From NCBI RefSeq assembly GCF_002494345.1, contig NZ_NXNI01000001.1, forward strand, positions 3,162,001 through 3,226,000: a DNA stretch of 64,000 bases, in the 5' to 3' direction. A program made the position numbers and the translations under genes. Below, one piece after another: positions 33,157 to 50,031 of the stretch. This stretch comes from Natrinema ejinorense (GTDB taxonomy: Archaea > Halobacteriota > Halobacteria > Halobacteriales > Natrialbaceae). The notes below the pieces were generated by a model. The model ran no database searches, was not told where the DNA came from, and was given only the letters and a program-made list of their open reading frames with translations. Every line of letters starts with the position of its first letter. The first letter of the stretch is position 1.

Positions 33157-36100
33157 TCAGATCTGCCGGAGCAGTTCGAGGACGTCTGCGAACCCGATCC
33201 GACCGTTCTCGTCGAAGTCGAACGCGTCGGGGTTGTCCTGGACGCCGTCGGTCTCGAGGTTCTCGAAGAAGGCGTTGACGTCCTCGTGGGTCGTCTCCCC
33301 GTCCCCGTCGACATCGTCGTAGAGCCCGTCACCGTCGGGATCCGTCGGCCGCTCGCCGTCGATCACCGGTGGCCGCTTGCCGTCCGCGCCCGACGCGGTT
33401 CCCGGGACGTCGACGGCTCCGACGTCGTCGCTACGGGACGGTTCGATACCGACCAGATCGTCGAAGGTGGCCACACAGCGGGTCCCGCTCGCGTGGCTGG
33501 TGACGGCCAGTCCCACCCGGACGCTGCTCGAGAACGACAGCGAGATCTCGGCCAGAAGCTGCCAGCGCTCGCCGTCGGCGGACGTGTACGCCCGAACCGC
33601 GTTGCCCGAGCGGACGAGCCGTTGCCAGGCGTGGTCGGTCGTCCCGCCGGCGACCTCGCTTTCGCCCGCGGCACCCGAGGTCAGGCTCACCGTTTCGCCG
33701 CCGACTGTCGGTCGCCACTGTACCGACGTCGCCGACGGCGTCCGCCGAATCATCGCGTTTTTCGCGCCGGCGTCCATCGAACCTCGGATCATGAGGCCGG
33801 CTTTCGCGTATTCGTCCGTGTTCTCGACGTCGTCGACCCTGACGGAGAGATCGAAATCACCGGTCGCGCTCGTCGAATAGTAGTGGCATTCGTCGGCGGA
33901 TCCCCAGATATCCGCGCCGGCACCCTCGACCGTGTACGGGCCGGCACCCCCGGTCCGCGGGGCGACGGGTTCGAGTCGCCAGCGCTGATCGTCACTCTCG
34001 TTCCATTCCCACTGGACGGCGTTTGCCCCGTCGGCGACGCTGCCGCCGGCTACGCCGAGGACGAGGTCGGAGTGGCTGGCGACGAGGCGATACGCGCCGT
34101 CCTCGAGCGGATCGAGGTACCACCGTTGGTTGTCGTTCCCGTTCACCGTCCACTGCTGGACGTTCGCGCCGTTGTCGGTCGACGCCCCCGCGACTTCCAG
34201 TGCCTTCCCCGAGCCGGCGGCGACGATTTCGTACGCGCCCTCGCCGACGTAGCGAAGGTCCCATCGCTGGTGTGTCAGGTCCTCGTCTGTGCCCTGTTGG
34301 ACGGTGGCACCATCCGATTCGTCGCCGCCGGCGACTTCGAGGACGTGGCCGGAGTTGGCGTTGACGAGCCGGTACGTGTCGGCCGGCACGTTCGCGGCGT
34401 CCGGCAGGCCGATGATGTCGGTCGGGTCGTCGACCGATTCGTCGGGACCGACCGGGTCGATCTCCGGCGTCGGCGGTTCGTCCATGCTCGAGCCGATGTA
34501 GAAGCTCGGGTGGGGCGGCTGGTTGTATCCGACGTTCTGCCAGGCGACCGCCGTCCGGTACTGCGAGTCGTGCATCAGCGTGTACAGCCGATGGTCGGTC
34601 TCGTACGGCGTCACGAACAGCCGGAGAGCCTCGTCGTCGTCGCGCCGCCAGAGCACCTCCTCGCGCCAGTCGCCGAGGATGTCGGCGGTCAGACACGGGT
34701 TCCCCTTCGTCCCGTTGTTCGAGCGCGTTCCCGGGAACGCCTCGAGTTCGGTGGTCGACCGGCTATCGGGGTCCCACTTGTGGAGCGTGGGGCCGTCCCA
34801 GTCGTCCACCAGTTCGCGCTGTAAGTCGCCCGTCCACCACGCGAGGTGGTTGATCGACCAGGGGGCATCGCCGATCCGCTCGCCGTCGGCGGCGCGGAGG
34901 CCGACGCCGTTGGACGCCCAGGCCTCGACGCCCCGATGGTTCGGATCGATGTTGGCGGCGACGCCGCGGCCGACGTCGCCCGCCGCGTCGACGGTCCAGA
35001 GCGGCTCGCCGGTCTCGCCGTCCCGCATCGTCGCGCCGTAGGGCCCCGACTCGTGGGGCTGGAATATCTCGAGGCCGTCGCGGTCGGGCAAGAAGTCCCC
35101 GCAGTGGAGGGCATCGCCGTGGTGCCACCCGGTCGTGTGTAGGCCCGTGCCGTCGTGGTCCAAGGCCATCGCACCGTAGACGATCTCGTCGCGGCCGTCG
35201 CCGTCGAGATCGGCGATGCTGAGCTGGTGGTTGCCCTGTCCGGCGTAGTCGCCGTTACCCGGCTCGTCGCTGTCGAAGGTCCACCGCTCGGTGAGGTCGC
35301 CGTCGCGGTAGTCGTAGGTGGTGACCATCGTTTTCTCGTAGTAGCCGCGGCCTACGACGATGCTCGGTCGCTCGCCGTCGAGGTACGCCACGCCCGCGAG
35401 GAAGCGGTCCACGCGGTTCCCATAGCAGTCACCCCATTGGCAGGGGTCTCCCCGGGCGGGCCGGAAATCGGTCGTCACCAGTTCCTCGCCGGTCGTCCCG
35501 TCGAAGACCGTGAGATACTCCGGCCCGTCCAGAACGTATCCGTCGTCGTTCCGCCAGTCGGCGTCCGGGTCGCCGATGACGTTCCCGGCGGCGTCGACGG
35601 TGCCGTCGGCCGTTCGGACGACGAACTCCGCGATGCCGTCCCCGTCGAAGTCGTAGACGAGAAACGGCGCGTAGTGTGCGCCCGCCCGGACGTTGATCCC
35701 CAGATCGATGCGCCAGAGCGGCTCGCCCTCGAGCGTGTACGCGTCGAAGATGTGCGGATCCGTCCGTCCGCTCTGTGAGTTGTCCTTCGCGTTGTCCGGC
35801 GACCACTTCACGACGATATCGTAGCTGCCGTCGCCCGTCAGGTCGCCGACGCTCGCGTCGTTCGGGTGATAGTTGTCACCGGGTCTGTCCAGCGGGATGT
35901 CCAGGTAATTGTCCTCCCAGACGCCGACCGACTTCGATTCCTCCCGTTCGGTGCCGTCGACCACCGGGCGGATCGCGTACGTCGATTCGGTCGTCCCGTC
36001 CGGATCGACGTAGTTCGTCCCGTCCGTGATCGGAGAGTCGTTCGCCCGCGTTCCATCTCGATAGAGGTTGAAAGCGACGTCGTCGGGGTCGGTCCCGAAC

Positions 36101-36402
36101 AGCCGCCAGCGGACGAGAACGCCGTCATCGACGGCGACGGCGACCAGTCCCCGATCAAGTGCTTCCATCTGGCGAGTCGACCCGTTACCGGGTGCCGCCC
36201 CGACCTGTGGACCTGCCGCAGCGACGGCGGCGCTCGATGCCACCCCGCCGAGGAACACCCGCCGGTGCATGCTTCGTCCCCGCGATGGGGTTCCGATCGC
36301 CTCGTCGCGTTCGGGCGCGGACGGCGACTCTGCTCCGCTCTCGAACGCGTTCGATCGGATCGGTTCCCCCTGCGTACGACGGTCGTCTCTGTCCTCGATC
36401 AT
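33157..36402 (-). CDS. PL11 rhamnogalacturonan lyase with ricin-type lectin, concanavalin-like and dockerin-like modules
   Basis: The 1081-residue protein starts with a long Tat leader (RRVFLGGVASS near residue 47). The catalytic region begins MEALDRGLVAVAVDDG (about residue 79) and continues to about 640, as in PL11 lyases that cut the rhamnogalacturonan I backbone; several Asp-rich turns (FDGDGIAEFVV) fit the calcium-binding beta-propeller of this family. Next are a ricin-B/CBM13-like lectin (about 665-805, three QRW repeats), a concanavalin-like domain (about 825-985) and a dockerin-like end (last 62 residues, loops DDVDGDGETTHED and FDFDENGRIGFAD). The ATG at 36402 has a GGAG upstream; ATG at 36270 is an alternative. 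Confidence 0.85.
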   Translation of the reverse strand: MIEDRDDRRTQGEPIRSNAFESGAESPSAPERDEAIGTPSRGRSMHRRVFLGGVASSAAVAAAGPQVGAAPGNGSTRQMEALDRGLVAVAVDDGVLVRWRLFGTDPDDVAFNLYRDGTRANDSPITDGTNYVDPDGTTESTYAIRPVVDGTEREESKSVGVWEDNYLDIPLDRPGDNYHPNDASVGDLTGDGSYDIVVKWSPDNAKDNSQSGRTDPHIFDAYTLEGEPLWRIDLGINVRAGAHYAPFLVYDFDGDGIAEFVVRTADGTVDAAGNVIGDPDADWRNDDGYVLDGPEYLTVFDGTTGEELVTTDFRPARGDPCQWGDCYGNRVDRFLAGVAYLDGERPSIVVGRGYYEKTMVTTYDYRDGDLTERWTFDSDEPGNGDYAGQGNHQLSIADLDGDGRDEIVYGAMALDHDGTGLHTTGWHHGDALHCGDFLPDRDGLEIFQPHESGPYGATMRDGETGEPLWTVDAAGDVGRGVAANIDPNHRGVEAWASNGVGLRAADGERIGDAPWSINHLAWWTGDLQRELVDDWDGPTLHKWDPDSRSTTELEAFPGTRSNNGTKGNPCLTADILGDWREEVLWRRDDDEALRLFVTPYETDHRLYTLMHDSQYRTAVAWQNVGYNQPPHPSFYIGSSMDEPPTPEIDPVGPDESVDDPTDIIGLPDAANVPADTYRLVNANSGHVLEVAGGDESDGATVQQGTDEDLTHQRWDLRYVGEGAYEIVAAGSGKALEVAGASTDNGANVQQWTVNGNDNQRWYLDPLEDGAYRLVASHSDLVLGVAGGSVADGANAVQWEWNESDDQRWRLEPVAPRTGGAGPYTVEGAGADIWGSADECHYYSTSATGDFDLSVRVDDVENTDEYAKAGLMIRGSMDAGAKNAMIRRTPSATSVQWRPTVGGETVSLTSGAAGESEVAGGTTDHAWQRLVRSGNAVRAYTSADGERWQLLAEISLSFSSSVRVGLAVTSHASGTRCVATFDDLVGIEPSRSDDVGAVDVPGTASGADGKRPPVIDGERPTDPDGDGLYDDVDGDGETTHEDVNAFFENLETDGVQDNPDAFDFDENGRIGFADVLELLRQI

Positions 36403-36774
36403 CGGTAGATTCTCCGGCCCATACCATTATTAATTTAACTTCTAATACATAAATTTAATTTTTCTATGTTATTATATATAGTGGAAACAAGTTGTAAATA
36501 TCCGGGCGAGTCGCACGGTACCGGATTCGTTTGGTCCCGCTCGAACGTCGCGCGGGAAGCATGGCGAATCGAGGCGGGTACAGTTCCTCGACGGCGCGAT
36601 CGACGCCGTCGAAGTCATAGGCGTCGACGGCGCCAGCGACGGTGTTGCCCGCCGGGATCTTCGCCGATGGCGGTTGCGCGTCTGCGCTCCAACGACTGAA
36701 CGTCCCTCGGTTCCCGACTCTCGAAAGCGACGGATGCGACGATCGGCTGGAGGAATCAATCCGTGACCGTCCGG
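36403..36774. other. AT-rich promoter region and coding-like remnant
   Basis: Bases 36420-36480 are AT-rich and carry the promoter of the PL11 gene. From about 36710 down to 36475 the minus strand has an open frame with halophile-like codon use, including the peptide PAGNTVAGAVDAYDFDGVDR, but no start or known homologue that I can name. It may be a gene remnant. Confidence 0.4.
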
Positions 36775-38328
36775 TCAGATCCGTCGAAGTAGATCGAGGA
36801 TGTCCGAGGAGCCAAAGCGGCCGTTGCCATCGAAGTCGAAGGCGTCGGGGTTGTTCTGAACGCCGTCGGACTCCCGGTGTTCGAAGAGGGTGTTGACGTC
36901 CTCGTGGGTCGTCTTGCCATCCCCGGTGACGTCCTCGTACAGGCCGTCGTCGTCCGCGTCCCGGGCCTCGTACTCGCCGACTGCGATCGTCTCGCCGTTG
37001 CCCTCGCCCGCGGGAATGCCGTCGGCTTTGTGATCGGCGAGGAGGGCTTTGATGTAGTTACCCATCGAATCCTCGTGGGGAACGACCTCCCACTCGCAGG
37101 GCGGATCGGTACACTCGCCGTCGAACGCCGGCCTGACCGAGATCTCGCTCGCCCAGCCGGCGTCGAAGTTCCAGGCCTGCCAGTGGATCGCGTCGCTCGA
37201 TTCCAGCCACTCGGCCATGGGGTCGGCGTACGACGAGATGATGTCGGTGCCGAGATGGCTCGAACTCCAGCCCCACTCGGTGACGAACAGGGGGTACTCC
37301 TCGTAGATCTTCTTCGTGCCGTCGCCGTTCGGCCCGGGCCCGTCCCACGCCTGTTGCTTGCTGGCCTCGTGTTTCGGGTAGATGTGATATGTGTACGCGA
37401 GGTTCTCGCCCTCGAACGGCTCGACGAGCGCCCCTTCGGGGCTCTGGGTCCAGCTCGGCGACCCGATGAGGACCAGATTTCGCGGCGCGTGATCACGGAT
37501 GATGTCGACCCAGGGCTGGGCCATGTCCCTCCACCAGTACCAGGGTTCTGCGGCCCACTCTTCCTCCGTCGGATCACCCCACATGCCGGGTTCGGTCGGC
37601 TCGTTGTACACCTCATAGAGCACGTGGGAGTCCTCGGCGTAGCGGGGTGCAACCGTCTCCCAGAAGAGCCGGACTTCCTCGTCGAGCCCCTGATTCGGAT
37701 CGCCCGTGTCGGGGTCCGCCCACTCGAGTTCGCCGCCGCCCCAATGGCGGTGGAAGTCGACGATACAGTACACGCCGTTCCGGCGACACGATTCGACGAC
37801 GGGATCGAGGTGTGCCGCGAGATACGTCTCGAGTTGATCCCGAGTCATCGTCGGCGGTTCGTAGTAGCCGACACCGTCCTCGCGGTCGACGTACCCGTCG
37901 GGGTTCACGTCGTCGTAGTGATGAGCCGACCACGGGGACGGCAGGCCAGCGATGTCCCACGGCTGGCAGGGGATACGGATGATACGGGAGTACCACCCCT
38001 TATCCTCGTTCGTCAGGTAGTCGACGGCCTGGGCCGCCGACTTGCCGCGGCCGCTGACGTCCTCGTTCATCCGCCGCGGGTCGGCGATGTTGACGCCCCG
38101 GAGGGTGACGGTGTTACCCTGCGGGTCTTTCACGAGGTTGCCGTCCACCTCCAGCCACGGCGTCGGAATGCCCTCGTTGGCTGCCTGTGCGCCGACGGTC
38201 CCGGTGATAGTGCCCGCGCCGAGGGACAGTGCGCCGGTCCCGGCGGCAGCCTTGATGACGGTTCGCCGTGAGAGGGTGTCGATCGTACTCGATTCGTCCG
38301 CGTTGAAAGATTGATCGGGTCCTTGCAT
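36775..38328 (-). CDS. GH5 glycoside hydrolase with C-terminal dockerin-like module
   Basis: A 517-residue Tat-exported enzyme (SRRTVIKAAAGTGALSLGAG). The GH5 barrel spans about 55-430: RGVNIADP, the acid/base Glu in YEVYNEPTEP (about 241) and the nucleophile Glu in FVTEWGWSSS (about 349). Family members are mostly beta-1,4-glucanases or mannanases; substrate is not fixed by these motifs. The last 62 residues are the dockerin-like module with loops EDVTGDGKTTHED and FDFDGNGRFGSSD. The GRFGSSDIL ending is shared only with the next gene at 38450. The start at 38328 is preceded by an AT-rich promoter. Confidence 0.88.
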   Translation of the reverse strand: MQGPDQSFNADESSTIDTLSRRTVIKAAAGTGALSLGAGTITGTVGAQAANEGIPTPWLEVDGNLVKDPQGNTVTLRGVNIADPRRMNEDVSGRGKSAAQAVDYLTNEDKGWYSRIIRIPCQPWDIAGLPSPWSAHHYDDVNPDGYVDREDGVGYYEPPTMTRDQLETYLAAHLDPVVESCRRNGVYCIVDFHRHWGGGELEWADPDTGDPNQGLDEEVRLFWETVAPRYAEDSHVLYEVYNEPTEPGMWGDPTEEEWAAEPWYWWRDMAQPWVDIIRDHAPRNLVLIGSPSWTQSPEGALVEPFEGENLAYTYHIYPKHEASKQQAWDGPGPNGDGTKKIYEEYPLFVTEWGWSSSHLGTDIISSYADPMAEWLESSDAIHWQAWNFDAGWASEISVRPAFDGECTDPPCEWEVVPHEDSMGNYIKALLADHKADGIPAGEGNGETIAVGEYEARDADDDGLYEDVTGDGKTTHEDVNTLFEHRESDGVQNNPDAFDFDGNGRFGSSDILDLLRRI

Positions 38329-38449
38329 TTATTTTCACCTTATTCTATATCTAAATAAATACTACAAATGCTTAAATTTGTCGGGAGTGTCCGAACCGTG
38401 AATCGCCGACGAAACCGAATGCCGGCGAGAAACGGCGACCGCCGTTCAG

Positions 38450-39931
38450 TTAGATCCGCCCGAGCAATTCGAGGATATCCGAGGAGCCAAAGCGGCCGTT
38501 GCCGTCGAAATCGAATTTCTCGGGGTTGTTCTGAACGCCGTCGGACCCGCGATTCTCGAAGAGGGCGGTGACGTCCTCGTGGGTCGTCTCCCCGTCGCCG
38601 GTGACGTCCTCGTACAGGCCGTCGTCGTCCGCGTCCCGGGCCTCGTACTCGCCGACTGCGATCACGTCGGGGTCGGATTCGTCGCCGCTCTTCCCGTCGA
38701 CAACCGCCGCATAGTCCTCGATGAGGTGGCCGGATTCGCTCGCGTAGAGTTGGAAGCCGTCGTGGTCCTCGGTGTCCTCGAGAACGACCTGCCACGGAAG
38801 AACGGCGTTACAGTCGTGCTCGTCGGCGACGTCGTACCACGCCGCGAGCGTCTCGTTTTTCGTCTCGAGGCCGTGCTGGGTGTCGTCGACGTTGAACTCG
38901 CCGAGGTAGGCGGGTTTGCCGATCTCCTCGTGGGCGTCGACGACGCGGTTCCGAATGTAATCCGCCCCTTCCTCGAGCGGGAAGTCCCAGTGGTCGGGAT
39001 ACAGGTGGAACGAACAGGCGTCGATCGTGTCGATCGAGTGGTGTTCGATGTAGTCCTGACCGCCCCAATCGTCGTTCGGGTAGTCGTCCTCCCAAGTCCC
39101 GTAGTAGTGACCCTCCGATCCCGTCGAGACGAGGTGATTCCCGTCGAGTTCTTTGATATATGATGACATGTCTGCGAACCAGTCGCCGAGGATCTCGCGG
39201 TGTTCGGGCGGCTCGAGGCTGTCCATGTCCGCGGGCACGTCGTCCTGCTCGAGACGCGGTTCATTGGCCAGTTCCCACAGCGCGATGGTCGGATCCTCGC
39301 GCCACTCGATCCCGCTGATCGAGTTCTCTCGCGTGAGGATGGTCTCGACGTGGTCGCGGTACATCCCGCGCGTCTCGTCCATCGTGTAGAACTCGTAGCG
39401 GGACTCGGCGCCCGCCCACTCGGCGTACTGGAGCATCCCTCCTTCGTGGTCCCAGTTGTCCACGAGCGTCGCGATGAGCCTGATCCCGCGCTCCCTGGCG
39501 GCCTCGATCAGGTAATCGAGGTTCTCGAGGGCGTCCTCGTTATACGCTCCGGGTTCGGGCTGGAGTGCGAGGGGACCGTCTTTGGCCTCGCCGTGAGCCC
39601 AGAACCGAACGAGGTCGATTCCCAGGTTCTCGTAGAGATCGAAGACGTCGTCGATGCGCTCTTTGGTCCCCTCGTACTCGTGGGTGATCCAGAAGTTGTT
39701 CGCTCCGTTGAAGTAGACCGGGTCGCCGTCGACGACGAACTCGGCACCGTCCGTCTCGACGTATGCGAGGTCGTCGGGGTCGGTCGTCGGTTCCGTCGCG
39801 GCCGCCGCCGTACTGGCGGCGAAAGGGGCGATCACCGCGCCCGCACCGATCGCTTTCACGAAGCGGCGCCGCGTCGGTCCGTTCTGTCGATCGATTCCGT
39901 CCGTGTCCGTCGCACGGTCGTTCGAAGTCAT
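38450..39931 (-). CDS. GH5 beta-mannanase-like enzyme with dockerin-like module
   Basis: A 493-residue Tat substrate (PTRRRFVKAIGAG). The barrel begins FVVDGDPVYFNGANNFWITH and continues VRFWAHGEAKDG, AARERGIRLIATLVDNW, the acid/base WELANEPRL (about residue 223) and nucleophile YLGEFNVDD (about 344). This set resembles GH5_7 endo-beta-1,4-mannanases, unlike the other five GH5 paralogues here. The C-terminal dockerin-like module has EDVTGDGETTHED and FDFDGNGRFGSSD. It would attack mannan or galactomannan outside the cell. Confidence 0.88.
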   Translation of the reverse strand: MTSNDRATDTDGIDRQNGPTRRRFVKAIGAGAVIAPFAASTAAAATEPTTDPDDLAYVETDGAEFVVDGDPVYFNGANNFWITHEYEGTKERIDDVFDLYENLGIDLVRFWAHGEAKDGPLALQPEPGAYNEDALENLDYLIEAARERGIRLIATLVDNWDHEGGMLQYAEWAGAESRYEFYTMDETRGMYRDHVETILTRENSISGIEWREDPTIALWELANEPRLEQDDVPADMDSLEPPEHREILGDWFADMSSYIKELDGNHLVSTGSEGHYYGTWEDDYPNDDWGGQDYIEHHSIDTIDACSFHLYPDHWDFPLEEGADYIRNRVVDAHEEIGKPAYLGEFNVDDTQHGLETKNETLAAWYDVADEHDCNAVLPWQVVLEDTEDHDGFQLYASESGHLIEDYAAVVDGKSGDESDPDVIAVGEYEARDADDDGLYEDVTGDGETTHEDVTALFENRGSDGVQNNPEKFDFDGNGRFGSSDILELLGRI

Positions 39932-40025
39932 GTGTTCAGGTCCTCGTCAGTCGTTCAGTGGTCGTGTGGCTCGCTCACCGGCCGAGTCGTGATCCGAAGA
40001 ATCTTCGAAGTCATCGATGGGCACC

Positions 40026-41522
40026 TCAGGTCCGCCGGAGCAGTTCGAGGACGTCCGAAAACCCGATTCGGCCGTTCCCGTCGAAGTCGAACGCCTCGGG
40101 GTTTTCCTGGACGCCGTCCGACTCGAGGTTCTCGAAGAAGGCGTTGACGTCCTCGTGGGTCGTCGCCCCGTCGCCGTTGACGTCCTCGTAGCGTCCGTCG
40201 TCGTTCGTATCCTGCGCCTCGTAGTCGCCGACCGCGATCGCGTCGCTTCCGTCGACGATCACGTCGTCTTTCGTTTCCTCGAGCCACTCGCGGACGAACC
40301 GGCCCATCTGTTCGGGGTCGTCTTTCAGCTCCCACGGCTGGCCGGCGCCGTCACCGGGCGAGTCGAAGAACGTGGGTGCCCACGTATCGTCGAAACACCA
40401 GGCGATCCAGCCCATGTTATCGTAGGACTCCAGCCACTCGCGGACGGGTTCGCCCCACCCGCTCGTCGTGCCGAACTCGACGTGTTCCCGGAACTCCTCG
40501 TCGGGATCCCAGCCGAATTCGGTGACGATGACCGGAACGTCCTCGGCGGGCGCACCGTACTCGGGATCGAACGGGCCGACCTCGTACGTGTCGCCTTCCT
40601 CTCCCCGCTCGAGCGTGTCATGCGGGAGGCCGTTGTCCGGGTATATGTGGCCGGAATAGATCAGGTTCTCCCCGTCGAAGGGGTACTCGGCGGCGAATTT
40701 GGTTCGGGAGGTCCAGTCGGGCGAGCCGATGACGATCGGCGTCTCGGGTGCCTCGTCCCGGATCGAGTCGACCCACGACTGGGCGGTGTCACGCCAGAGC
40801 ATCCACTCGTCTTCCCTCGTCTGGACCGACGGACCGTGTTCCCCGTAGGTCGACCACGTGACGGGGAGCGTCGGTTCGTTGAACAGTTCGAAGAGGACGT
40901 TCTCATCGTCGGCGAACTCGGGGGCGACCGCGCCCCAGAACTCCGTCAGTAGGTCGTCGGTACCGACATGGGGATCGAAGCCGAGGCCGTCGAGACTGTC
41001 CGACCAACCGTCCTCGACCATTCCTTCCCCGTGACTCAGGGCCTCCACGTACGGCCGAATGATGTGAAAGTCGATCATCGCGTAGACGCCCCGGTCGGCG
41101 AGCAGATCGACGGCCGGACGCAGGAGGTCGTCGACGACGTACTGCATCCCGCGCTCGTGGACCGCGGCTTCTCCAACCGGCAGCCGAACCGTGTTCGGGT
41201 GCCACTGCTCCCCGTCGGTCGCGTGTTCGAGGATCTCGCGCTGGCTTCTGGGGTGTACCGACTCGAGGTAATCCAGCGACGCCGGCGAGACTCCGCGGGG
41301 TTTCACCCGTTGTCCGTCCTCGGTCACGATCCACTTCCCGTCGGTTCCCAGACGCGGCGTCGGCGTATCGACGGCCGCTGCCGAACCCGCCAGCCCGCCG
41401 AGTGCGAGGCCGATCGTCCCGACGCCCGCCGCTTTCACGAACGCCCGTCGCGTCGGTCGGCGTGACCGGCGGTCCGCTCGTTCGGGTAGCCGCTTCTCGC
41501 CCGCGCGATTATCGTAATCCAT
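40026..41522 (-). CDS. GH5 glycoside hydrolase with dockerin-like module
   Basis: A 498-residue protein from the ATG at 41522; the frame extends to 41603 but the extra residues precede a complete Tat leader (RPTRRAFVKAAGVGTIGLAL), so they are unlikely. GH5 acid/base is in FELFNEPTLP (about 212), nucleophile in IVTEFGWDPD (about 336). The dockerin-like C-terminus has EDVNGDGATTHED and FDFDGNGRIGFSD. It diverges more from the paralogues at 36775, 41688, 43600 and 48169 than they do from each other. Substrate is unknown. Confidence 0.86.
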   Translation of the reverse strand: MDYDNRAGEKRLPERADRRSRRPTRRAFVKAAGVGTIGLALGGLAGSAAAVDTPTPRLGTDGKWIVTEDGQRVKPRGVSPASLDYLESVHPRSQREILEHATDGEQWHPNTVRLPVGEAAVHERGMQYVVDDLLRPAVDLLADRGVYAMIDFHIIRPYVEALSHGEGMVEDGWSDSLDGLGFDPHVGTDDLLTEFWGAVAPEFADDENVLFELFNEPTLPVTWSTYGEHGPSVQTREDEWMLWRDTAQSWVDSIRDEAPETPIVIGSPDWTSRTKFAAEYPFDGENLIYSGHIYPDNGLPHDTLERGEEGDTYEVGPFDPEYGAPAEDVPVIVTEFGWDPDEEFREHVEFGTTSGWGEPVREWLESYDNMGWIAWCFDDTWAPTFFDSPGDGAGQPWELKDDPEQMGRFVREWLEETKDDVIVDGSDAIAVGDYEAQDTNDDGRYEDVNGDGATTHEDVNAFFENLESDGVQENPEAFDFDGNGRIGFSDVLELLRRT

Positions 41523-41687
41523 AGTATACCAACAACCACGTCTTATTTTCAAATAAATTTTTCTAAAATAAACTCCCCGGGACGGTCGCTCCGTGGCGAC
41601 CACTGCGCCGAAACGTGTCCTCGACCGCGGCCGGATCGGCGGATTGGGGCGTCGAGTAGCGACCGGTTTCGTTCGGCCCGGCTACCG

Positions 41688-43226
41688 TTATATGCGCCGA
41701 AGCAGTTCGAGGACGTCCCCGAAGCCGACGTCGCCGGTTCCGTCGAAGTCGAACGCCTCGGGGTTTTCCTGGACGCCGTCCGACTCGAGGTTCTCGAAGA
41801 AGGCGGTGACGTCCTCGTGGGTCGTCTCCCCGTCGCCGTCGACGTCCTCGTAGAGCCCGTCTCCGTTCGCGTCCCGGGCCTCGTACTCTCCGACTGTGAT
41901 CGCGTCCGAATCGCCGCTTGCCTCGGGGAGGTCGTCGGTACGTCGATCGGTCAGATACGTTTGCCACCACTCGCCCTGATAGTCCTCCCCGCCGAGGAGC
42001 GTCCACTCCTGTGTGTTGTCGTCGTAGTCGAACATGGTCGGCTCCCAGAACGGATCGAAACACCATATCTGCGGATGGACGGTATCGTACTCGTCGAAGA
42101 ACGCCTCGAACGCCGCGCCGTGTTCGGACGTCGTTCCCGAGAGGGGACTCCCGGCATCAGCCTGATATCCGAACTCCGTGAGGAACACCGGCACCTCCTC
42201 GGACGGGTCGCCGAAATAGTCCCCGAGCGGACGAAGGCCGTCGTGACCGGCGTACACGTGACCAGCGTACGCGAGGTTTTCGCCGTCGAACTCGTGGCGT
42301 GGTGCCCAGTAGGTGTACTGGCTCCACCGTGGCGAGCCGATGATAACGACGTTGCGCTCGGCGTGGTCGCGGATGGTATCGACCCACGGCTGGGCGGTCT
42401 CGCGCCACTGGAGCCAAGCTTGTTCGGCGTCGGAGCCGTGAACGTCGTACTCCTCGCCTGGCTCCTGGCCGGCGTAGGGACCGACCGGCTCGTTGTACAC
42501 CTCGTAGAGAACGTGCGAGTCATCGGCGAACTCGGGAGCGACGGTGTTCCAGAACAGCCGAACCTCCTCGTCGAGGTCGGGATCGGTGTACTCGAGACTC
42601 GTGTCGGCGTGACGGTGGTAGTCGACGATGCAGTAGACGCCGACGTCCCCACAGTAGTCGACGACCGGTCGGAGGTGGTGTTCGATGTACGCCTCGAGTT
42701 GCTCCTGGGTGACCGTCCCCGGATCGACTTCGTTCCGGATCTCACCGCTGACGCTGCCGTCGTCCGGATCGACGGTAACGATATCGCCGGTCTGGACCGG
42801 AATGCGGATGATCCGCGCGTACCAGTTCCTGTCGGGATCGGTCGCGTGGTCGATCGTCTCCGAGAGCGGTCGACGCCACGACCGCGCCGTACGGGCGGGA
42901 TCGATCACGTTGACGCCGCGGAGCACGACCTCGTTCCCGGTCGGGTCGCGGAGTACGTTCCCGTCGCGCTCGAGCCACGGCGTCTCGATCCCGCGGCCGT
43001 CTCCGGCGTTCTCGGCACGGGCGGGATCGGCAAGCGCGCCGGCCGTTATTCCGATCGCACCGAGGGCAGTCGTCGCGAGAAACCCCCGCCGGGAGCGGCG
43101 GGTCAGGCTCGCGTCGTATCCGCCCCGGGCGTCGGCAAAGCTGGCGTTTGGCGGCGATCGATTCCGAGACATCGTCATCCGTTCGTCGGGCCGTTCTCGT
43201 CGCGTGTCGCGTTCGTTCGTAGTCAT
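41688..43226 (-). CDS. GH5 glycoside hydrolase with dockerin-like module
   Basis: A 512-residue Tat-exported enzyme (TRRSRRGFLATTALGAIG). The barrel contains RGVNVIDPART, IVDYHRH, acid/base YEVYNEPVGP (about 243) and nucleophile FLTEFGYQAD (about 350). The closest relative in the window is the gene at 48169: both share the segment GSPRWSQYTYWAP. The dockerin-like module carries EDVDGDGETTHED and FDFDGTGDVGFGD; the second loop has Thr where the others have Asn. It is followed downstream by the GH5 gene at 40026. Confidence 0.87.
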   Translation of the reverse strand: MTTNERDTRRERPDERMTMSRNRSPPNASFADARGGYDASLTRRSRRGFLATTALGAIGITAGALADPARAENAGDGRGIETPWLERDGNVLRDPTGNEVVLRGVNVIDPARTARSWRRPLSETIDHATDPDRNWYARIIRIPVQTGDIVTVDPDDGSVSGEIRNEVDPGTVTQEQLEAYIEHHLRPVVDYCGDVGVYCIVDYHRHADTSLEYTDPDLDEEVRLFWNTVAPEFADDSHVLYEVYNEPVGPYAGQEPGEEYDVHGSDAEQAWLQWRETAQPWVDTIRDHAERNVVIIGSPRWSQYTYWAPRHEFDGENLAYAGHVYAGHDGLRPLGDYFGDPSEEVPVFLTEFGYQADAGSPLSGTTSEHGAAFEAFFDEYDTVHPQIWCFDPFWEPTMFDYDDNTQEWTLLGGEDYQGEWWQTYLTDRRTDDLPEASGDSDAITVGEYEARDANGDGLYEDVDGDGETTHEDVTAFFENLESDGVQENPEAFDFDGTGDVGFGDVLELLRRI

Positions 43227-43319
43227 GGTCGGGTGCTGGCTCGCTGTTCGCTGCTGTGATCGCGGTCCCAGCCGCTGTGGCGACTGGGTCGTTCGTCGCT
43301 GCTCGTTCGACTATAGACG

Positions 43320-43480
43320 ACCGCTAGACGTTCGCGGACATCCCCGAAGCCGATCTCTCCGTTGTCAAAGTCGAAACATCGCCTCGGACGCCGTCTCCCT
43401 CGAGGCGCTCGAAGGAAGCGGTGACGTCCTCGTGGGTCGTTCGACTGTCACCGTTGACATCAGTGTACAGTCCGTTGCCG
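43320..43480 (-). pseudogene. Orphan frameshifted dockerin-module relic
   Basis: Between two intact GH5 genes the minus strand encodes GLYTDVNGDSRTTHEDVTA, then FERLEGDGV, which matches the dockerin-like module, and in a shifted frame FDFDNGEIGFGDVRERL, the second loop. The shift lies near 43380. No enzyme domain is left upstream; the remaining 373-bp gap (43227-43599) has no other coding signal. It looks like the 3' end of a lost dockerin-bearing gene or a stray module from recombination. Confidence 0.75.
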
Positions 43481-43599
43481 GGCCGCATTCCGGGGCTCGT
43501 GGCCGGCGGGCCCGAATCCTCGCGTCTGGATTTATCGGTGGTCCCGCGCCGGTCAGGACGTGCCCCTCGACGATCGTACTCGAGGGACCGACCGCTCGG

Positions 43600-45663
43600 T
43601 CAGATCCTGTTGAGGAGTTCGAGGACATCGGCGAAACCGATCTCGCCGTTCCCGTCGAAGTCGAAGGCGTCGGAGTTTTCCTGGACGCCGTCCGACTCGA
43701 GGTTCTCGAAGAAGGCGTTGACGTCCTCGTGGGTCGTCTCACCGTCGCCGTCGACGTCCTCGTAGAGCCCGTCGTCGTTCGTGTCCCGGGCCTCGTGGTC
43801 TCCAACCGAGATCGTGTCGGAGCCGTCGCCGCCGTCGTTTGCCCCGCCACCGATGGTCCGCGTCTCGAAGGGCACCTGATCGTCTTTGTGTGCCTCGAGT
43901 TGTTCCTTCAGGTACTCGCCGCTGTTTTCGCCGCCGATCAGGTTCCACTCGCAGGGGAGTTCCTCACAGCCGACCGGAATGTCCTCGAAAGACGTGTCGT
44001 AGAAGTTGTCGTTGACGAGGTCGAGTTCGCCCTCTTCCGGTGCGTTCGGATTGTCGAACATCTTCGGCAACCAGCGGACGTCGGCACACCAACCGACCCA
44101 GCTGATCCGGTCGTCTTCCTCGACCTGATTCAGGAAGGGAACGCCGTACTCGGGGAGGGTCCCCTGTCCGGTGGTCGTCCCGCGCAGCCAGTGGGAGACG
44201 TCGGTGTCGTTGATCCAGCCGAACTCGGTGACGGCGATGGGGTGGTGCTCCATCGCGTTCTGGAGACCCGCCGCCTCGTAGGCTTCCCAACCGTAGCAAT
44301 CCTGCAGATTGTCGGGATGGTCGCTCACCGGCAGGTAGGGACTCTCGAGGTCTTCTCCGGTCTCGGCCTCGACCGCCTCGGGACTCTTGTAGTGCGTATC
44401 GTTGAACCAGTTGTTCATCTGGCTGACGTCGTGGCCCGCGTAGTTGTGCCAGGTGACGGCGATGTTGTCGTAGCCCGCGTCGTTGAAGTTCCGCCAGTGG
44501 AGCGCCTGCACCGACTGGCACCAGCCGGGGACGCCGACCAGCAGGACGCGATCGGACTGGTACTCCCTGATCTTCTCGATGATCGGGCCCATGAACTCGT
44601 CGAGGTACGTGTCCCAGAGCGGCTTCTGTTTGTACGCCGAACAGCCCTCGACGGGACCCCAGATCCCCGGTGCAGTCGGCTCGTTGTACGGCTCGAAGAT
44701 CACGTGATCCATCTCGCCGTACCGCTTGGCCACCACGTCCCAGAACATGAGGACCTCCTCGAGCAGTTCCTGGTTGACCGTCCAGTTCTCGTACGCGTAC
44801 GGCGTCCCGGGGAGGTCGCTCTCGCTGTGGATATCTCGAACGTAACCGTCTCCGGGCGTTTCCTTGATGTACTTCTGGTCGACGTACCCCCACGAGCCCG
44901 GCGCGTCCTTGCCGAACATCTCGTGGCTGTTGTACGCCCAATAGTTCGTGTACTCGCTGTTATAGGGCAGGTGGTTCTCGGCGTAGGAGGGTTGCTCGAT
45001 GCCCGGCGGCTGTTCGTGCCAGTGTCGGTGATAGTCGACGATGCAGTAGACCCCACGCTCCTTGCAGCGCTCGACGATCGGGTCGTAGTAGTTCTCGAGG
45101 TAGTCCTCAAGTTCCGCCCGAGTGAACGCCGCCGGCTGGGCCGGCCGCTGTTTCCGCCGGTCGTCGTCGACCGCCTGCGGTGACTCGAGTTCGCCGTACT
45201 CGTACTCGGGCCCGGTGTGCCCCATCGGATGCTCGCCGATGTCCTGTGGCTGTGCGGGCACGCGAATCACCCGCGGATGCCAGCCGGCCTCGTTGTTCGT
45301 GACCATATCGAGGAGCTGTTCGGGCGTCTTTCCGCGGAGGTGTCGCGTCCGGTGGAGCCGCTTCGGGTCGGGGATGCTGAGGCCCCGCATCTTGAACGTC
45401 TCGCCGTCCTCGTTGACGATCCGGTTGTCGTCGCTGACCGTCAGGTTCTGGAACTCGGCGATCCCGCCGGCCGCCGCACTGCCGGCGAAGCCAGCACCGA
45501 GTCCGAGGGCAGCGACGCCGGTCCCCGCAGTCGCTCGCATCATGTTTCGCCGAGTGAGGGAGATCGGCGACGTCGCGTCGTTCGCGTTCAACACGCTCTG
45601 TCGCGTGTTCTCGTTCGTCGCGGTCGATTCGTCCGTTCGCTGTGTGTTGTCGTTGGGTTGCAT
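43600..45663 (-). CDS. Long GH5 glycoside hydrolase with dockerin-like module
   Basis: The preferred ATG at 45663 (MQPNDNTQRTDES) gives 687 residues; another in-frame ATG is at 45708. The Tat leader is SLTRRNMMRATAGTG. The GH5 barrel is longer than its paralogues, with an insertion (about 170-280) rich in Tyr/Asn/Pro between the VDYHRHWHEQPPG strand and the acid/base FEPYNEPTAPG (about 328); the nucleophile is in AVTEFGWIND (about 481). The module at the end has EDVDGDGETTHED and FDFDGNGEIGFAD. The insert could shape a substrate cleft or hold calcium; substrate is unknown. Confidence 0.86.
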   Translation of the reverse strand: MQPNDNTQRTDESTATNENTRQSVLNANDATSPISLTRRNMMRATAGTGVAALGLGAGFAGSAAAGGIAEFQNLTVSDDNRIVNEDGETFKMRGLSIPDPKRLHRTRHLRGKTPEQLLDMVTNNEAGWHPRVIRVPAQPQDIGEHPMGHTGPEYEYGELESPQAVDDDRRKQRPAQPAAFTRAELEDYLENYYDPIVERCKERGVYCIVDYHRHWHEQPPGIEQPSYAENHLPYNSEYTNYWAYNSHEMFGKDAPGSWGYVDQKYIKETPGDGYVRDIHSESDLPGTPYAYENWTVNQELLEEVLMFWDVVAKRYGEMDHVIFEPYNEPTAPGIWGPVEGCSAYKQKPLWDTYLDEFMGPIIEKIREYQSDRVLLVGVPGWCQSVQALHWRNFNDAGYDNIAVTWHNYAGHDVSQMNNWFNDTHYKSPEAVEAETGEDLESPYLPVSDHPDNLQDCYGWEAYEAAGLQNAMEHHPIAVTEFGWINDTDVSHWLRGTTTGQGTLPEYGVPFLNQVEEDDRISWVGWCADVRWLPKMFDNPNAPEEGELDLVNDNFYDTSFEDIPVGCEELPCEWNLIGGENSGEYLKEQLEAHKDDQVPFETRTIGGGANDGGDGSDTISVGDHEARDTNDDGLYEDVDGDGETTHEDVNAFFENLESDGVQENSDAFDFDGNGEIGFADVLELLNRI

Positions 45664-45782
45664 TGGTCTCTCGTCGGGAATCGTGACTGCTGATCGGGAA
45701 TCGGTCACGGAGGGTCGTGGGCTCGAAGGGAGCCGTCAATGGAAACGGAACGGGGGACAGTCTGCCAGGGGATCGGCGGTGG

Positions 45783-47999
45783 TTAGGCGACAGTAATCGT
45801 GACTTCGTGGGTCGTCTCGCGTCCCCGCTGATCCGTCGCGGTGAGCGTTACCGTGTAGTTGCCACTGGAACCGTAGGAGTGACCGGCGTGCCAGCCGCTG
45901 GCGGATGTCCCGTCACCGAGATCCCACTCGAGTCCCTCGATCCAGATGTCGTCGGGCGTGTTGTCCGTAACCCTGAAGTCGATCCGCTCGCCCGTCTCGA
46001 CGTCCGTGGCACTCGGATCGATCTTCGCGAGGTGGTCCACTTCGAGGGGGATCTCACCGTCGACGGGCTCCCAGGCGTAGGATTCCTCGTATTTGGGCTC
46101 CTCGCCACGGGTCGTCCACTGTGCTTCCCAGTCTTCGCCGTTCCAGTGGACGCGGTCACCCTCTCGATAGAGGGTGTCGGAATCCCACTCGGGATACTCG
46201 CTGTCGCTTCCGTCCTCGTCGTCCGATTCCGCGGTCGTGGCAGAAACCGTCGCAGCGTCGGTCTCCGTGCCGTCTTCGCCAACCGCGGTGACACCGATCT
46301 CGTAAGTGGTACCCGGCTCGAGTTCGGTGACGGTGGTCGCCGTCGAGGACAGCGTGGTTTCCCGCTCGCCGTCGACCCGGACGACGTACTCGACGGCGTT
46401 GGGATCGGAGTTCCACTCGATCTCGACCGACGTCTCGTTCTCGGCGACGACCTCGAGCCCTTCGGGCGTGCTCGGAGGCACGTTGGCTTCCGCGGTCGTG
46501 GCAGAAACCGTCGCAGCGTCGGTCTCCGTGCCGTCTTCGCCAACCGCGGTGACACCGATCTCGTAGGTGGTTCCCGACTCGAGGTCGGTAACGGTAGCGC
46601 TGCTCGAGGCCGTAGTGGTTTCCCGCTCGCCGTCGACCCAAACGCCGTACTCGACGGCGTTCGGATCGGTACGCCACGAGAGCTCGATCGAGGTCTCGTT
46701 CTCGGCAACCACTTCGAGGTTTTCGGGGACGCTGGGAGGCTCGGCGTCGGGCTCGCCGTCACCGACGGTGAGCATCGCCTCCTCGACCGTCGGCTCGATG
46801 GCGTTGTTGTCGGGATCCTCGAGTCGGACGATCTCGGCGTCGAGGACGGTTTCACCGTCCGCTACGCCCTCGATTTCGATCTGACCGAACTCGATGTCGG
46901 TTGCGCCATCGTCGACGGTACTGATCGCGTAGAGTTTTCCGTACTCGTCTTCGGCTTCGACGGTACTGAGGGTGGCATCGGCGAACGTCTCGCTGAGCGC
47001 GGCATCGGTGACCCGAACGACGTCCGTATCGACGTTGAGGTCGACGTTGAATCCGAGCACGCCGTTCGGTGCCGCGCTCAGACCGAGATCGACGGTCGTC
47101 GTCTCGCCCGGATCTATCATCGCATCATCGAGGGTGACGGTGAGCGTGGGCGTCTCCGGCTCCGCACCGGCGACGGTCGTAGCCTGAACCGTCGCCGTGT
47201 CGGACGTGGTCTCGTCCTCGCCGATGGCGGCAACGCCGATCTCGTAGCTGGTGTCGGCCGCGAGGCCAGTGATCGTGGCGCTGGTCGACGTCGTCGTCGA
47301 TTCTCGCTCGCCGTCGACGGAGAGGGCATACTCCACGGCGTTTGACACTGGGCTCCACGCGACCTCGACCGACGTCTCGTTCTCTGCAACCACTTCGAGA
47401 TCCGTCGGCATTGCGGGTGCGGCGGAGTCGGTACCGACGGTCAGCGTCGGTGCGTCGTAGTTGGCGTCTCCAACTGTGCCACCCTCGGGCGGGGACAACG
47501 AGAAGTTCGTGAGTTCGGGGTCGGTGGTCCCGTCGCCTCGTGCCTCGAGGTGGATCGTTCCAACCTCGTACTCGCTCTCGGAGATCCCGGAACTCGTGGA
47601 GGCATTGAGGTTCACCGAGGCGACGGAGCCGCCCTCGTCCTCGATGTTGCTATTGATGACCCCTTCCAGGATTCCGTGACTCCCCAGTTCGATTTCAGTG
47701 ATCTGTGCGACGTCGGGATCGACCCCGATCCCGATGGTCGTGCCGCTCGATCCTTCGGGGAAATCTTGCAGCCGGACCGTCGCAGTCGTGCTCTCGCCGG
47801 CCTGGATCTGCTCGTCCGCGAGCTCGAGCACTACTGTCGGCAGGCGTTCCTGGGCCGCGACCGTCGAGGTCCCGAGTGCGAGCGCGCCAGCACTGACACC
47901 GGCGGCTCGCATGAAAGTGCGTCGTGATGTCGACGTGTCGGTCTGCCCATCGGTTTCGGTGAACTGTTCCTCGTCGTGTGTCTCGATATCGTCGTTCAT
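45783..47999 (-). CDS. Scaffoldin-like protein: two cohesin-like domains, three FN3, CBM5/12-like and PKD
   Basis: A 738-residue Tat-exported protein (STSRRTFMRAAGVSAG) with no catalytic domain. Order: cohesin-like 1 (about 55-189; begins TVVLELADEQIQAGESTT, ends NYDAPTLTVG), FN3-1 (195-277), cohesin-like 2 (284-413; begins LTVTLDDAMIDPGETTTVDL, ends EEAMLTVG), FN3-2 (420-503), FN3-3 (508-590), CBM5/12-like (601-646; YPEWDSDTLYREGDRVHWNG) and PKD (650-738; EWDLGDGTSASGW). Cohesins bind dockerins; CBM5/12 modules bind chitin or cellulose. It has no dockerin, S-layer or C-terminal anchor. The cohesin call rests on fold-like patterning and the dockerin-rich context. Confidence 0.8.
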   Translation of the reverse strand: MNDDIETHDEEQFTETDGQTDTSTSRRTFMRAAGVSAGALALGTSTVAAQERLPTVVLELADEQIQAGESTTATVRLQDFPEGSSGTTIGIGVDPDVAQITEIELGSHGILEGVINSNIEDEGGSVASVNLNASTSSGISESEYEVGTIHLEARGDGTTDPELTNFSLSPPEGGTVGDANYDAPTLTVGTDSAAPAMPTDLEVVAENETSVEVAWSPVSNAVEYALSVDGERESTTTSTSATITGLAADTSYEIGVAAIGEDETTSDTATVQATTVAGAEPETPTLTVTLDDAMIDPGETTTVDLGLSAAPNGVLGFNVDLNVDTDVVRVTDAALSETFADATLSTVEAEDEYGKLYAISTVDDGATDIEFGQIEIEGVADGETVLDAEIVRLEDPDNNAIEPTVEEAMLTVGDGEPDAEPPSVPENLEVVAENETSIELSWRTDPNAVEYGVWVDGERETTTASSSATVTDLESGTTYEIGVTAVGEDGTETDAATVSATTAEANVPPSTPEGLEVVAENETSVEIEWNSDPNAVEYVVRVDGERETTLSSTATTVTELEPGTTYEIGVTAVGEDGTETDAATVSATTAESDDEDGSDSEYPEWDSDTLYREGDRVHWNGEDWEAQWTTRGEEPKYEESYAWEPVDGEIPLEVDHLAKIDPSATDVETGERIDFRVTDNTPDDIWIEGLEWDLGDGTSASGWHAGHSYGSSGNYTVTLTATDQRGRETTHEVTITVA
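46228..46750 (-). repeat. 261-bp tandem repeat encoding FN3-2 and FN3-3
   Basis: The two copies are offset by 261 bp (87 codons); a stretch of about 78 bp starting at 46228 and 46489 is identical in both. The near-identity at silent sites points to recent duplication or gene conversion. Confidence 0.8.
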
Positions 48000-48168
48000 T
48001 GGTATGTCTCCGTATCGGTTGCTGTCGTCACCGGTGTCACCTGCTCGCAGTCCGCAGTCGGTGCGAGCCGGTCGGTCGTGGCTGTGACACCGCGCCCTAT
48101 TCTTGCGCTTTCCTCACTATATCAACTATATTATTTAATATATTTAATTTTATATTTATTGTTGTGTC

Positions 48169-50031
48169 TTAAATTTCGTTGAGCAGTTTGAGGACGTCCG
48201 AGAAGCCGATCTCGCCGTTCCCGTCGAAGTCGAATTTCTCGGGATTGTTCTGAACGCCGTCCGACTCGAGGTGCTCGAAGAACGCATTGACGTCCTCGTG
48301 GCTGGTCTCCCCGTCGCCGGTGACGTCCTCGTAGCGGCCGTCGTCGTCCGTGTCCCGTGCCTCGTACTCACCGACTTCGACCGTCTCATCGCCGCTTCCG
48401 CCGATCGGGCCGGGTCCGATGTGCTTGTCGTTCTTTCCGTTGTCGGCGTCCGGATACGGTTCGTCGCCGGGCGCGAACGTATCGCGGTCGCCGGCCATTT
48501 GCTGGTTCATCTCGTGCCACCAGACGCCGGGCGTCTCGTCGTTGAGGTAGTTCATCCAGTCGTCGGCACCCTTCGCGCCGTCGTTCCGTCCCGGCGTTCC
48601 GTGCTCGAACATATTCGGCTCGTAGGTGTGGTCGAACGACCACGCCAGCGGGTGGACGTCGTAGTTCTCGATGAACTCCTCGTAGCCCTGAATGTACGGC
48701 TCACAATCGCCGTCGTGTTCGCCGCTACAGTCCATCCAGGGCGTATCGACGTGCATCCCGCCGCCCTCGATCCAGCCGAACTCGCTGAAGAAGACCGGCA
48801 CGTGTTCGGCCGCCTCGCCGAAGTACTTCGAGAGGGGCCGCAGGTCGTCCTGGGTGTAGACGTGAGCGGTGTAACACATGTTCTCGGCGTCGAACTCGTT
48901 GTACGGCGCCCAGTAGGTGTACTGGCTCCACCGGGGACTCCCGATCGTGACCAGGTGACCGGGCGCGTTCTCCTCGACCGTGTCGACCCACGGCTGGGCC
49001 CGATCGACCCACAGGTCGTACCAGGCCTTCATGTCATCGTTGGCGACGTCGTAATTGGACGCGTCTCCGTCGCCGGGAGCCTCCGCCGGATCGGAGAGGT
49101 CACCCGCCTGTCGCTGCGGGCCACCCCAGTCGCCGCCGTACGGGCCGGTCGGCTCGTTGTAGACGTCGAAGATGACGTGATCGTCGCCCGCGTACCGATC
49201 CGCGACGACCTCCCAGAAGGTGTGCAGTTCCTCGTCGAGCGCGTTGGAAACCTCCGGGGGTTCGAGGTAGATGTCGTCCTCGGTGAGGTCGTACGCCTCG
49301 AGGATGTTCTGCTCGTCGATCAGATCCCAGATCTCGTCGACCTGATCCTCGCCGTGCCAGAGCACCCCGCGCTCGCCACAGACTTCCGGGTGCCGCCAGT
49401 CCTCGCCGCCGTCGCTCGAGCACTGCCAGACGTTCGGATCGACGCCGTGGTTCTTGTGGTCCTCCTGATGGAAGACGGGATAGTGACGGTGGTAATCGAT
49501 CATCACGTAGGCACCGCGCTGGGCACCGAGTTCGACGAGTTCGTCGAGGAAGGTCCGACAGTACCACTTCACGTCCTCCCTGTCGAACTGCCCCGGCAGG
49601 GCCGGCCCCCAGTCGTCGCCGTGGGGCATTTCCCACGGTTCCGCGTTACGCGTCCCGGCCGCGAGGAACGCGGGCATTACCGGTACCCGGACGACGTTGG
49701 TGTACCAGCCCTCGCTCTCGTTGGTCGCCAGCCTGAACGTCTCGGGTGCCGTCTGCCCCCGCCACTTGCGGCTCTGTTCGGCCGGGTCGGCGATGTTGAC
49801 TCCACGAAGGATGACCTCGTTACCGCTCGGATCGACGATCTTGTTTCCGTCACGGGCTAGCGGCGGGAGGTCGACCTCCTGGGTGCTTGCAGCACCGCTG
49901 ACGCCGAGACCGCCGATCGCGATCACGCTCGTCCCCGTCGCCTTCAGTATCGTCCGGCGTGACGTCGAGATGGTCCTGCTGCCCCGCTTCGACTGTGCCT
50001 CTGAGTCGGCTTGGTTCGTATTCTCGGTCAT
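48169..50031 (-). CDS. GH5 glycoside hydrolase with dockerin-like module, upstream-most gene of the island
   Basis: A 620-residue Tat-exported enzyme (STSRRTILKATGTSVIAIGG). GH5 motifs are RGVNIADPAEQSRKW, acid/base FDVYNEPTGPYGG (about 290) and nucleophile FFSEFGWIEGG (about 418). The central region has inserted loops rich in Asp/Gly/Trp (about 180-280). The dockerin-like end has EDVTGDGETSHED and FDFDGNGEIGFSD, finishing LKLLNEI. It lies directly upstream of the scaffoldin-like gene, with an AT-rich 169-bp gap between. A long AT-rich upstream region probably holds its promoter. Confidence 0.87.
   Translation of the reverse strand: MTENTNQADSEAQSKRGSRTISTSRRTILKATGTSVIAIGGLGVSGAASTQEVDLPPLARDGNKIVDPSGNEVILRGVNIADPAEQSRKWRGQTAPETFRLATNESEGWYTNVVRVPVMPAFLAAGTRNAEPWEMPHGDDWGPALPGQFDREDVKWYCRTFLDELVELGAQRGAYVMIDYHRHYPVFHQEDHKNHGVDPNVWQCSSDGGEDWRHPEVCGERGVLWHGEDQVDEIWDLIDEQNILEAYDLTEDDIYLEPPEVSNALDEELHTFWEVVADRYAGDDHVIFDVYNEPTGPYGGDWGGPQRQAGDLSDPAEAPGDGDASNYDVANDDMKAWYDLWVDRAQPWVDTVEENAPGHLVTIGSPRWSQYTYWAPYNEFDAENMCYTAHVYTQDDLRPLSKYFGEAAEHVPVFFSEFGWIEGGGMHVDTPWMDCSGEHDGDCEPYIQGYEEFIENYDVHPLAWSFDHTYEPNMFEHGTPGRNDGAKGADDWMNYLNDETPGVWWHEMNQQMAGDRDTFAPGDEPYPDADNGKNDKHIGPGPIGGSGDETVEVGEYEARDTDDDGRYEDVTGDGETSHEDVNAFFEHLESDGVQNNPEKFDFDGNGEIGFSDVLKLLNEI

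Follow-up and report, generated by a model that had tools for sequence, protein, structure and literature searches.

The window analyzed here is a 64,000-nucleotide stretch of the Natrinema ejinorense genome (contig NZ_NXNI01000001.1 of assembly GCF_002494345.1, positions 3,162,001 to 3,226,000), and our subject is a cluster in which enzymes ending in dockerin modules lie around a scaffoldin-like gene, a candidate small secreted system of the cellulosome type. Judging by the positions of the open reading frames, eight genes fill positions 33157 to 50031, all on the minus strand (as are all cluster features given below), which is the arrangement of adjacent genes that a first-pass annotation of this DNA had described. 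Pfam assigns six of the seven enzymes to glycoside hydrolase (GH) family 5 and one to the PL11 rhamnogalacturonan lyases, and all seven carry a C-terminal Dockerin_1 module. The PL11 enzyme (33157-36402, 1081 amino acids) matches RGL11_C (4e-224) and also contains RicinB_lectin_2, a ricin-B lectin domain, and DUF1349. The GH5 enzyme at 36775-38328 (517 amino acids, Pfam Cellulase 6e-31) is cellulase-like, its nearest solved relatives being GH5 cellulases, and that at 38450-39931 (493 amino acids, 4e-10) is endo-β-mannanase-like, with a GH5 mannanase as top solved relative (E 7e-55). The others lie at 40026-41603 (525 amino acids, 1.5e-27), 41688-43226 (512 amino acids, 1e-24), 43600-45708 (702 amino acids, 5e-21), and 48169-50031 (620 amino acids, 1e-17), the last beside the scaffoldin-like gene. 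Both catalytic glutamate motifs are kept in the GH5 enzymes, and Pfam together with the closest solved relatives bears out, at the level of enzyme family, the predicted GH5 glucanase or mannanase and PL11 activities. The claim of twin-arginine leaders on all eight proteins stands as far as the motif is concerned, which is found near the N-terminus of every one (RR at residue 47 in the PL11 enzyme), but the curated TAT model is passed above its cut-off by the scaffoldin-like protein alone.

The dockerins are located at 33160-33348 in the PL11 enzyme and, for the GH5 enzymes in the order given above, at 36778-36969, 38453-38644, 40032-40220, 41691-41882, 43603-43794, and 48172-48363. The module of the 40026-41603 enzyme is the top match of the set (PF00404 5e-6; A2 profile 121.6 bits), that of the 48169-50031 enzyme reaches 118.8 bits with the A2 profile, and the other five are recognized by PF00404 and by a profile built from relatives. 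In whole-protein hmmscan, PF00404 (Dockerin_1) is found in all seven enzymes with E values of 4e-5 to 9e-3, mostly slightly below the gathering score. A genome-wide PF00404 search (4.48 Mb) places all seven above the cut-off as the only Dockerin_1 matches of the genome, and a chance EF-hand pattern was rejected on the ground that all of these fall in the cluster. The profile from relatives adds just two matches in the same genome, one in a PhoX-family protein encoded at a different locus and the other in a frameshifted remnant within the cluster. The enzymes had been said to end in near-identical modules with two EF-hand-like loops of the pattern D-x-x-G-(D/N)-G-x5-D; the near-identity is confirmed, and reading of the sequence finds the pattern in 12 of 14 loops but not in loop 2 of the PL11 enzyme (DFDENG) or the second loop of the 41688-43226 enzyme (DFDGTG). 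The PF00404 matches above cut-off in 7/7 enzymes and the two-calcium-loop EF pattern, strict in those 12 loops, identify the modules as type I dockerins. Among the GH5 enzymes the mean identity is 77% for the dockerins vs 35% for the catalytic parts; a shared binding partner would impose such high dockerin identity, and gene conversion and shared ancestry could contribute. Because the two repeats of the dockerin carry different residues at the recognition positions (HE vs FS, FA, FG, or SS), a single rather than dual binding mode is suggested. The remnant (43378-43479), which keeps 34 residues before the frame is lost and was found with the A2 profile (43.1 bits) and by reading the sequence, lies between two GH5 genes and is probably the trace of a lost enzyme or of a duplication. 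In G052, a 68-amino acid orphan dockerin occurs at the place matching this remnant.

The eighth gene (45783-47999) encodes a protein of 738 amino acids consisting of a twin-arginine leader, cohesin 1 (residues 49-191; 47427-47855), an fn3 domain, cohesin 2 (residues 279-416; 46752-47165), two further fn3 domains, a carbohydrate-binding module (CBM) of CBM5/12-like type (residues 604-643; 46071-46190), and a PKD domain (about residues 661-737; 45789-46019; PKD_4 2.8e-14). The CBM5/12-like module, which shows weak similarity to chitinase C (2d49), as well as the PKD domain and the three fn3 domains were detected by Pfam in addition to what the first-pass annotation had reported. No catalytic family is matched in this protein by whole-protein Pfam, so the earlier description of a gene with two cohesin-like domains and no catalytic domain proved correct, and Pfam together with the predicted folds gives a non-catalytic scaffoldin with at least two cohesins, a hallmark of cellulosomes. 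The two cohesins are homologous, are 27% identical, and may differ in specificity. It is the cohesin 2 type that relatives within the genus have multiplied and have also placed on anchor-like proteins. The GH5 enzymes of the window have a dockerin and neither CBM5/12 nor PKD, while the scaffoldin holds a CBM5/12-like module and PKD, and judging by this distribution of modules targeting seems to be a task of the scaffold and not of the individual enzymes. Elsewhere in the same genome, a chitin-type cluster (G000:C1, about 3343625-3352405; L094:3625-12405) encodes a subtilase and GH18 chitinase-type proteins, each of the latter with CBM5/12 and PKD modules; it contains no dockerin.

Structure prediction and a PDB structure search of both domains, which the first-pass annotation had proposed, returned the cohesin fold, and the outcome that it had named as refuting its idea, a fold other than that of cohesins, did not appear. 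AlphaFold2 models based on alignments of relatives are confident β-sandwiches with predicted local distance difference test scores of 93.9 for cohesin 1 and 91.7 for cohesin 2. In Foldseek searches against PDB, all 50 listed matches of cohesin 1 are cohesins (best E 1.1e-8), and for cohesin 2 ranks 1 to 28 are all cohesins (best E 1.1e-8), the sole non-cohesin among its 50 listed matches being the adhesin domain 9ifr at rank 29. The archaeal cohesin of Archaeoglobus fulgidus (2xdh) is found in the lists of both domains, and no CBM is present among the 50 listed matches of either. When PDB sequences were searched with a profile, the top match was the Scaffoldin C cohesin (E 0.0098), and three further cohesins were among the eight matches. 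The Pfam cohesin model PF00963 is less responsive: as an isolated domain, cohesin 2 of the window gives E = 0.001 and 19.7 bits, which does not reach the cut-off of 24.1, and 15 of 33 isolated family members match with E values of up to 1, the lowest being 5.8e-6. This shortfall is one of sequence-model sensitivity rather than of fold, and profiles were built from orthologues because the family model is too narrow here. A PF00963 search of the window's own genome likewise does not match the scaffoldin and matches two other proteins, a 332-amino acid protein with a membrane tail (G000:C1, about 1110246; L001) and a 2285-amino acid secreted repeat protein with a C-terminal cohesin (L067:6910-13767). 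The cohesin fold of both domains is well supported by the predicted models; their binding of dockerins is a prediction.

The same gene arrangement, looked for in other haloarchaea as had been suggested, is found in many genomes. Nine further family genomes (ten with the window) carry an orthologue of the scaffoldin, flanked by dockerin-bearing genes in eight of these nine, and a GH5-dockerin gene adjoins the scaffoldin in every one of the resulting nine clusters, the window included. One of the nine is Natrinema salsiterrestre, of the window's genus, the one relative given by a single-protein scan. Most of the orthologous scaffoldins have two cohesins and those of G066, G095, and G096 have three. 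Larger proteins occur in more distant relatives, including a 1768-amino acid GH5-(cohesin)8 protein in G007 (GH5 by Pfam) and a 2096-amino acid protein in G008 that has ten cohesins behind a GH5-like N-terminal region; in both genomes the large scaffoldin is followed by a single-cohesin protein of 258 to 261 amino acids with a PGF-CTERM-like tail and then by a run of dockerin genes. G336 encodes a 1032-amino acid (cohesin)5-dockerin protein (L078:16101-19199) next to a single-cohesin protein that has a membrane tail, a pair which by analogy would represent the primary scaffoldin and receptor topology of bacterial cellulosomes, and proteins with cohesin and dockerin modules are present in G127. 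We also noticed a GH5-like protein with at least five cohesins that ends at a contig edge (G085:C23; L068:1-3521), in a genome whose 47 dockerin matches are the largest set among the genomes searched.

Cohesins and dockerins also tend to be present or absent together. Among 125 genomes of the family searched with cohesin and dockerin profiles, 53 have both, 64 neither, 5 a dockerin only, and 3 a cohesin only (Fisher p 1e-25, a value that overstates the case because the genomes share ancestry and a single PhoX locus contributes many of the pairs); the co-occurrence statistics are used as support only. In the window's genus, 20 genomes have both and 9 have neither, and across 392 genomes at the level of the order the counts are 122 with both, 44 with a dockerin only, 8 with a cohesin only, and 218 with neither. 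A high-scoring cohesin match is found in 12/12 family genomes with at least five dockerins vs 1/113 of the others. The dockerins themselves give a sharper indication of a link between the two modules. All seven window dockerins have Glu at position 11 of loop 1 (alignment column 23), which in clostridial dockerins is a classical recognition position; G068 and G069 have Gly there, G066 has Ala, and G095 and G096 have Asp. Positions 10 and 11 together read His-Ala in G066 and mostly Thr-Thr in G008. The residue at position 11 is nearly fixed within genomes and differs between genomes, with just 4% of the column's entropy falling within genomes vs a median of 47% for variable columns, a pattern that a shared partner would likewise impose and to which gene conversion and shared ancestry could contribute. 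These data bear on the possibility that the dockerin-like C-termini bind substrate or only stabilize the enzyme with calcium, so that each enzyme works alone. In favor of it, a substrate-binding role is assumed in published haloarchaeal genome papers (PMC10963439; PMC13260240), and five family genomes have a dockerin match but no cohesin match at the sensitivity used. However, cohesin folds sit among dockerin genes in nine orthologous clusters, the presence and absence of the two modules co-vary strongly, and recognition-loop residues that are uniform within a genome and different between genomes are not predicted by substrate binding; we regard independently working enzymes as unlikely.

A second alternative accepts the pairing of cohesins and dockerins and takes its purpose to be that single enzymes are displayed at the surface, or stored, on a protein associated with the cell wall, instead of multi-enzyme assembly on the substrate. 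It draws on the single-cohesin proteins with PGF-CTERM-like tails in the clusters of G066, G068, G069, G007, and G008 (the PGF-CTERM matches of relatives are below threshold, at 20.8, 16.8, 15.9, and 13.8 bits vs 24.5), and on the dockerin-bearing PhoX phosphatase, whose neighbor is a cohesin protein ending in a membrane tail. In the window, however, the scaffoldin lacks an anchor-like tail and has two cohesins together with a putative carbohydrate-binding module, and relatives carry 3, 5, 8, or 10 cohesins per protein, all of which makes mere display of single enzymes very unlikely. The PhoX locus itself (G000:C1 982086-985423; L060:7086-10423) comprises an 872-amino acid PhoX-family phosphatase with a C-terminal cohesin and dockerin, followed by the gene of the cohesin protein with a membrane tail; the pair is the same in G060 and similar in G011, and similar-sized frames occur in many other genomes. 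The pair may serve to hold PhoX at the surface of the cell. That the two scaffoldin domains belong to the wider CBM/cohesin superfamily as jelly-rolls that bind carbohydrate or mediate adhesion, and do not bind dockerins, is scarcely credible, since a weak match of isolated members to the Ig-like family Big_12 and the low sequence identity to solved cohesins are outweighed by structural matches that are cohesins with the one adhesin exception and by the genomic coupling of the cohesin genes to dockerins; assignment of the domains as CBMs or immunoglobulin domains was rejected on the same near-exclusively cohesin matches.

We therefore consider it highly probable that the window locus encodes a small secreted cellulosome-type system in which the dockerins bind the cohesins of the scaffoldin. 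The enzymes and the scaffoldin would be exported by the twin-arginine route, after which calcium-loaded dockerins would plug into its cohesins. Since there are only two of these, one scaffoldin could hold no more than two of the seven enzymes at a time, in varying pairs, and the product would therefore be a mixed pool of small complexes. The CBM-PKD end of the scaffoldin is predicted to target the complex to plant cell-wall polysaccharide or hold it there. Attachment to the cell surface is a feature of many cellulosomes but not of all, and the cluster of the window contains no gene for a cell anchor; its complex would be released or substrate-bound and not anchored to the cell, whereas several relatives would add the single-cohesin protein with its PGF-CTERM-like anchor.

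Several observations weigh against this interpretation. Whole-protein Pfam calls neither window cohesin, and identity to solved cohesins is mostly 10% to 17%, and the binding face, unlike the fold, is not well supported. The CBM5/12 match of the scaffoldin, at 22.1 bits, is under the Pfam cut-off of 26.2. The scaffoldin of G056 lacks any neighboring dockerin gene over a distance of about 20 kb, and the only two dockerin genes of that genome are elsewhere. Finally, the co-occurrence counts are phylogenetically non-independent, and many of them come from the separate PhoX-cohesin-dockerin locus.

On a wider scale, haloarchaea probably hold true cellulosomes throughout the order, with scaffoldins of 2 to 10 cohesins, glycoside hydrolases and lyases that bear dockerins, and receptors in which a single cohesin is joined to an archaeosortase-type anchor. 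These would form a separate lineage of cohesin-dockerin assembly that functions in saturated salt. Some of the scaffoldins would then have a built-in GH5 and one its own dockerin, and the window would represent the small unanchored form. Such systems would have been overlooked because Pfam misses most of their cohesins. If binding is confirmed, archaea own an enzyme-assembly machine, the published haloarchaeal dockerins gain a partner that replaces the assumed substrate binding, and cohesin-dockerin pairs active at saturating salt become available, which would be useful for protein engineering.

In the open-access literature, outside which most subscription papers lie, our searches gave no paper on cellulosomes, scaffoldins, or cohesins of archaea, haloarchaeal cohesins included, and no description of cellulosomes outside bacteria; archaeal cohesin and dockerin modules are called non-cellulosomal. 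An archaeal mini-cellulosome, predicted here from sequence and models, is thus apparently undescribed. The mechanisms by which halophilic archaea hydrolyze polysaccharides have been called almost unknown (PMC10267330). Protein lengths in G007 match, in order, those of the published island of Natronoglomus mannanivorans (637, 610, 258, 759, 589, 741, 577, 815, 835, and 490; PMC10963439), and G007 is apparently this organism, an identification made on protein lengths and not on sequence. In the table of that paper, "GH5/CBM6, 1,755 aa" stands at the scaffoldin position and "S-layer glycoprotein" at that of the anchor; the dockerin of a GH26 is said to take part in substrate binding (PMC10963439), a statement repeated in PMC13260240, and cohesins are mentioned neither in PMC10963439 nor in PMC10267330.

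With the clusters of haloarchaeal cellulose and mannan degraders in those two accounts (PMC10963439; PMC10267330) the window shares a GH5-rich island, dockerins, and Tat signals; it differs from the accounts in that there the scaffoldin is listed as GH5/CBM6 and the dockerin is read as substrate-binding.

The Ruminiclostridium cellulolyticum CipC type is a bacterial cellulosome with a small unanchored scaffoldin. The window system resembles it in having a secreted non-catalytic scaffoldin with cohesins and, in this case, a putative CBM (CBM5/12-like and sub-threshold), in the clustering of this gene with those of a pectin lyase and of glycoside hydrolases that bear dockerins, and in the two-EF-loop type I pattern of its dockerins. 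Unlike the CipC type, it has a haloarchaeal host, twin-arginine export, fn3 spacers, a CBM5/12-like module and PKD in place of CBM3, and, for seven enzymes, only two cohesins, which are mostly 10% to 17% identical to solved bacterial cohesins. With the non-cellulosomal cohesin of A. fulgidus (PDB: 2xdh) it shares archaeal origin and the same fold, but in the window several dockerins are carried by enzymes that degrade polysaccharide, and these are encoded next to a protein with two cohesins and a putative carbohydrate-binding module.

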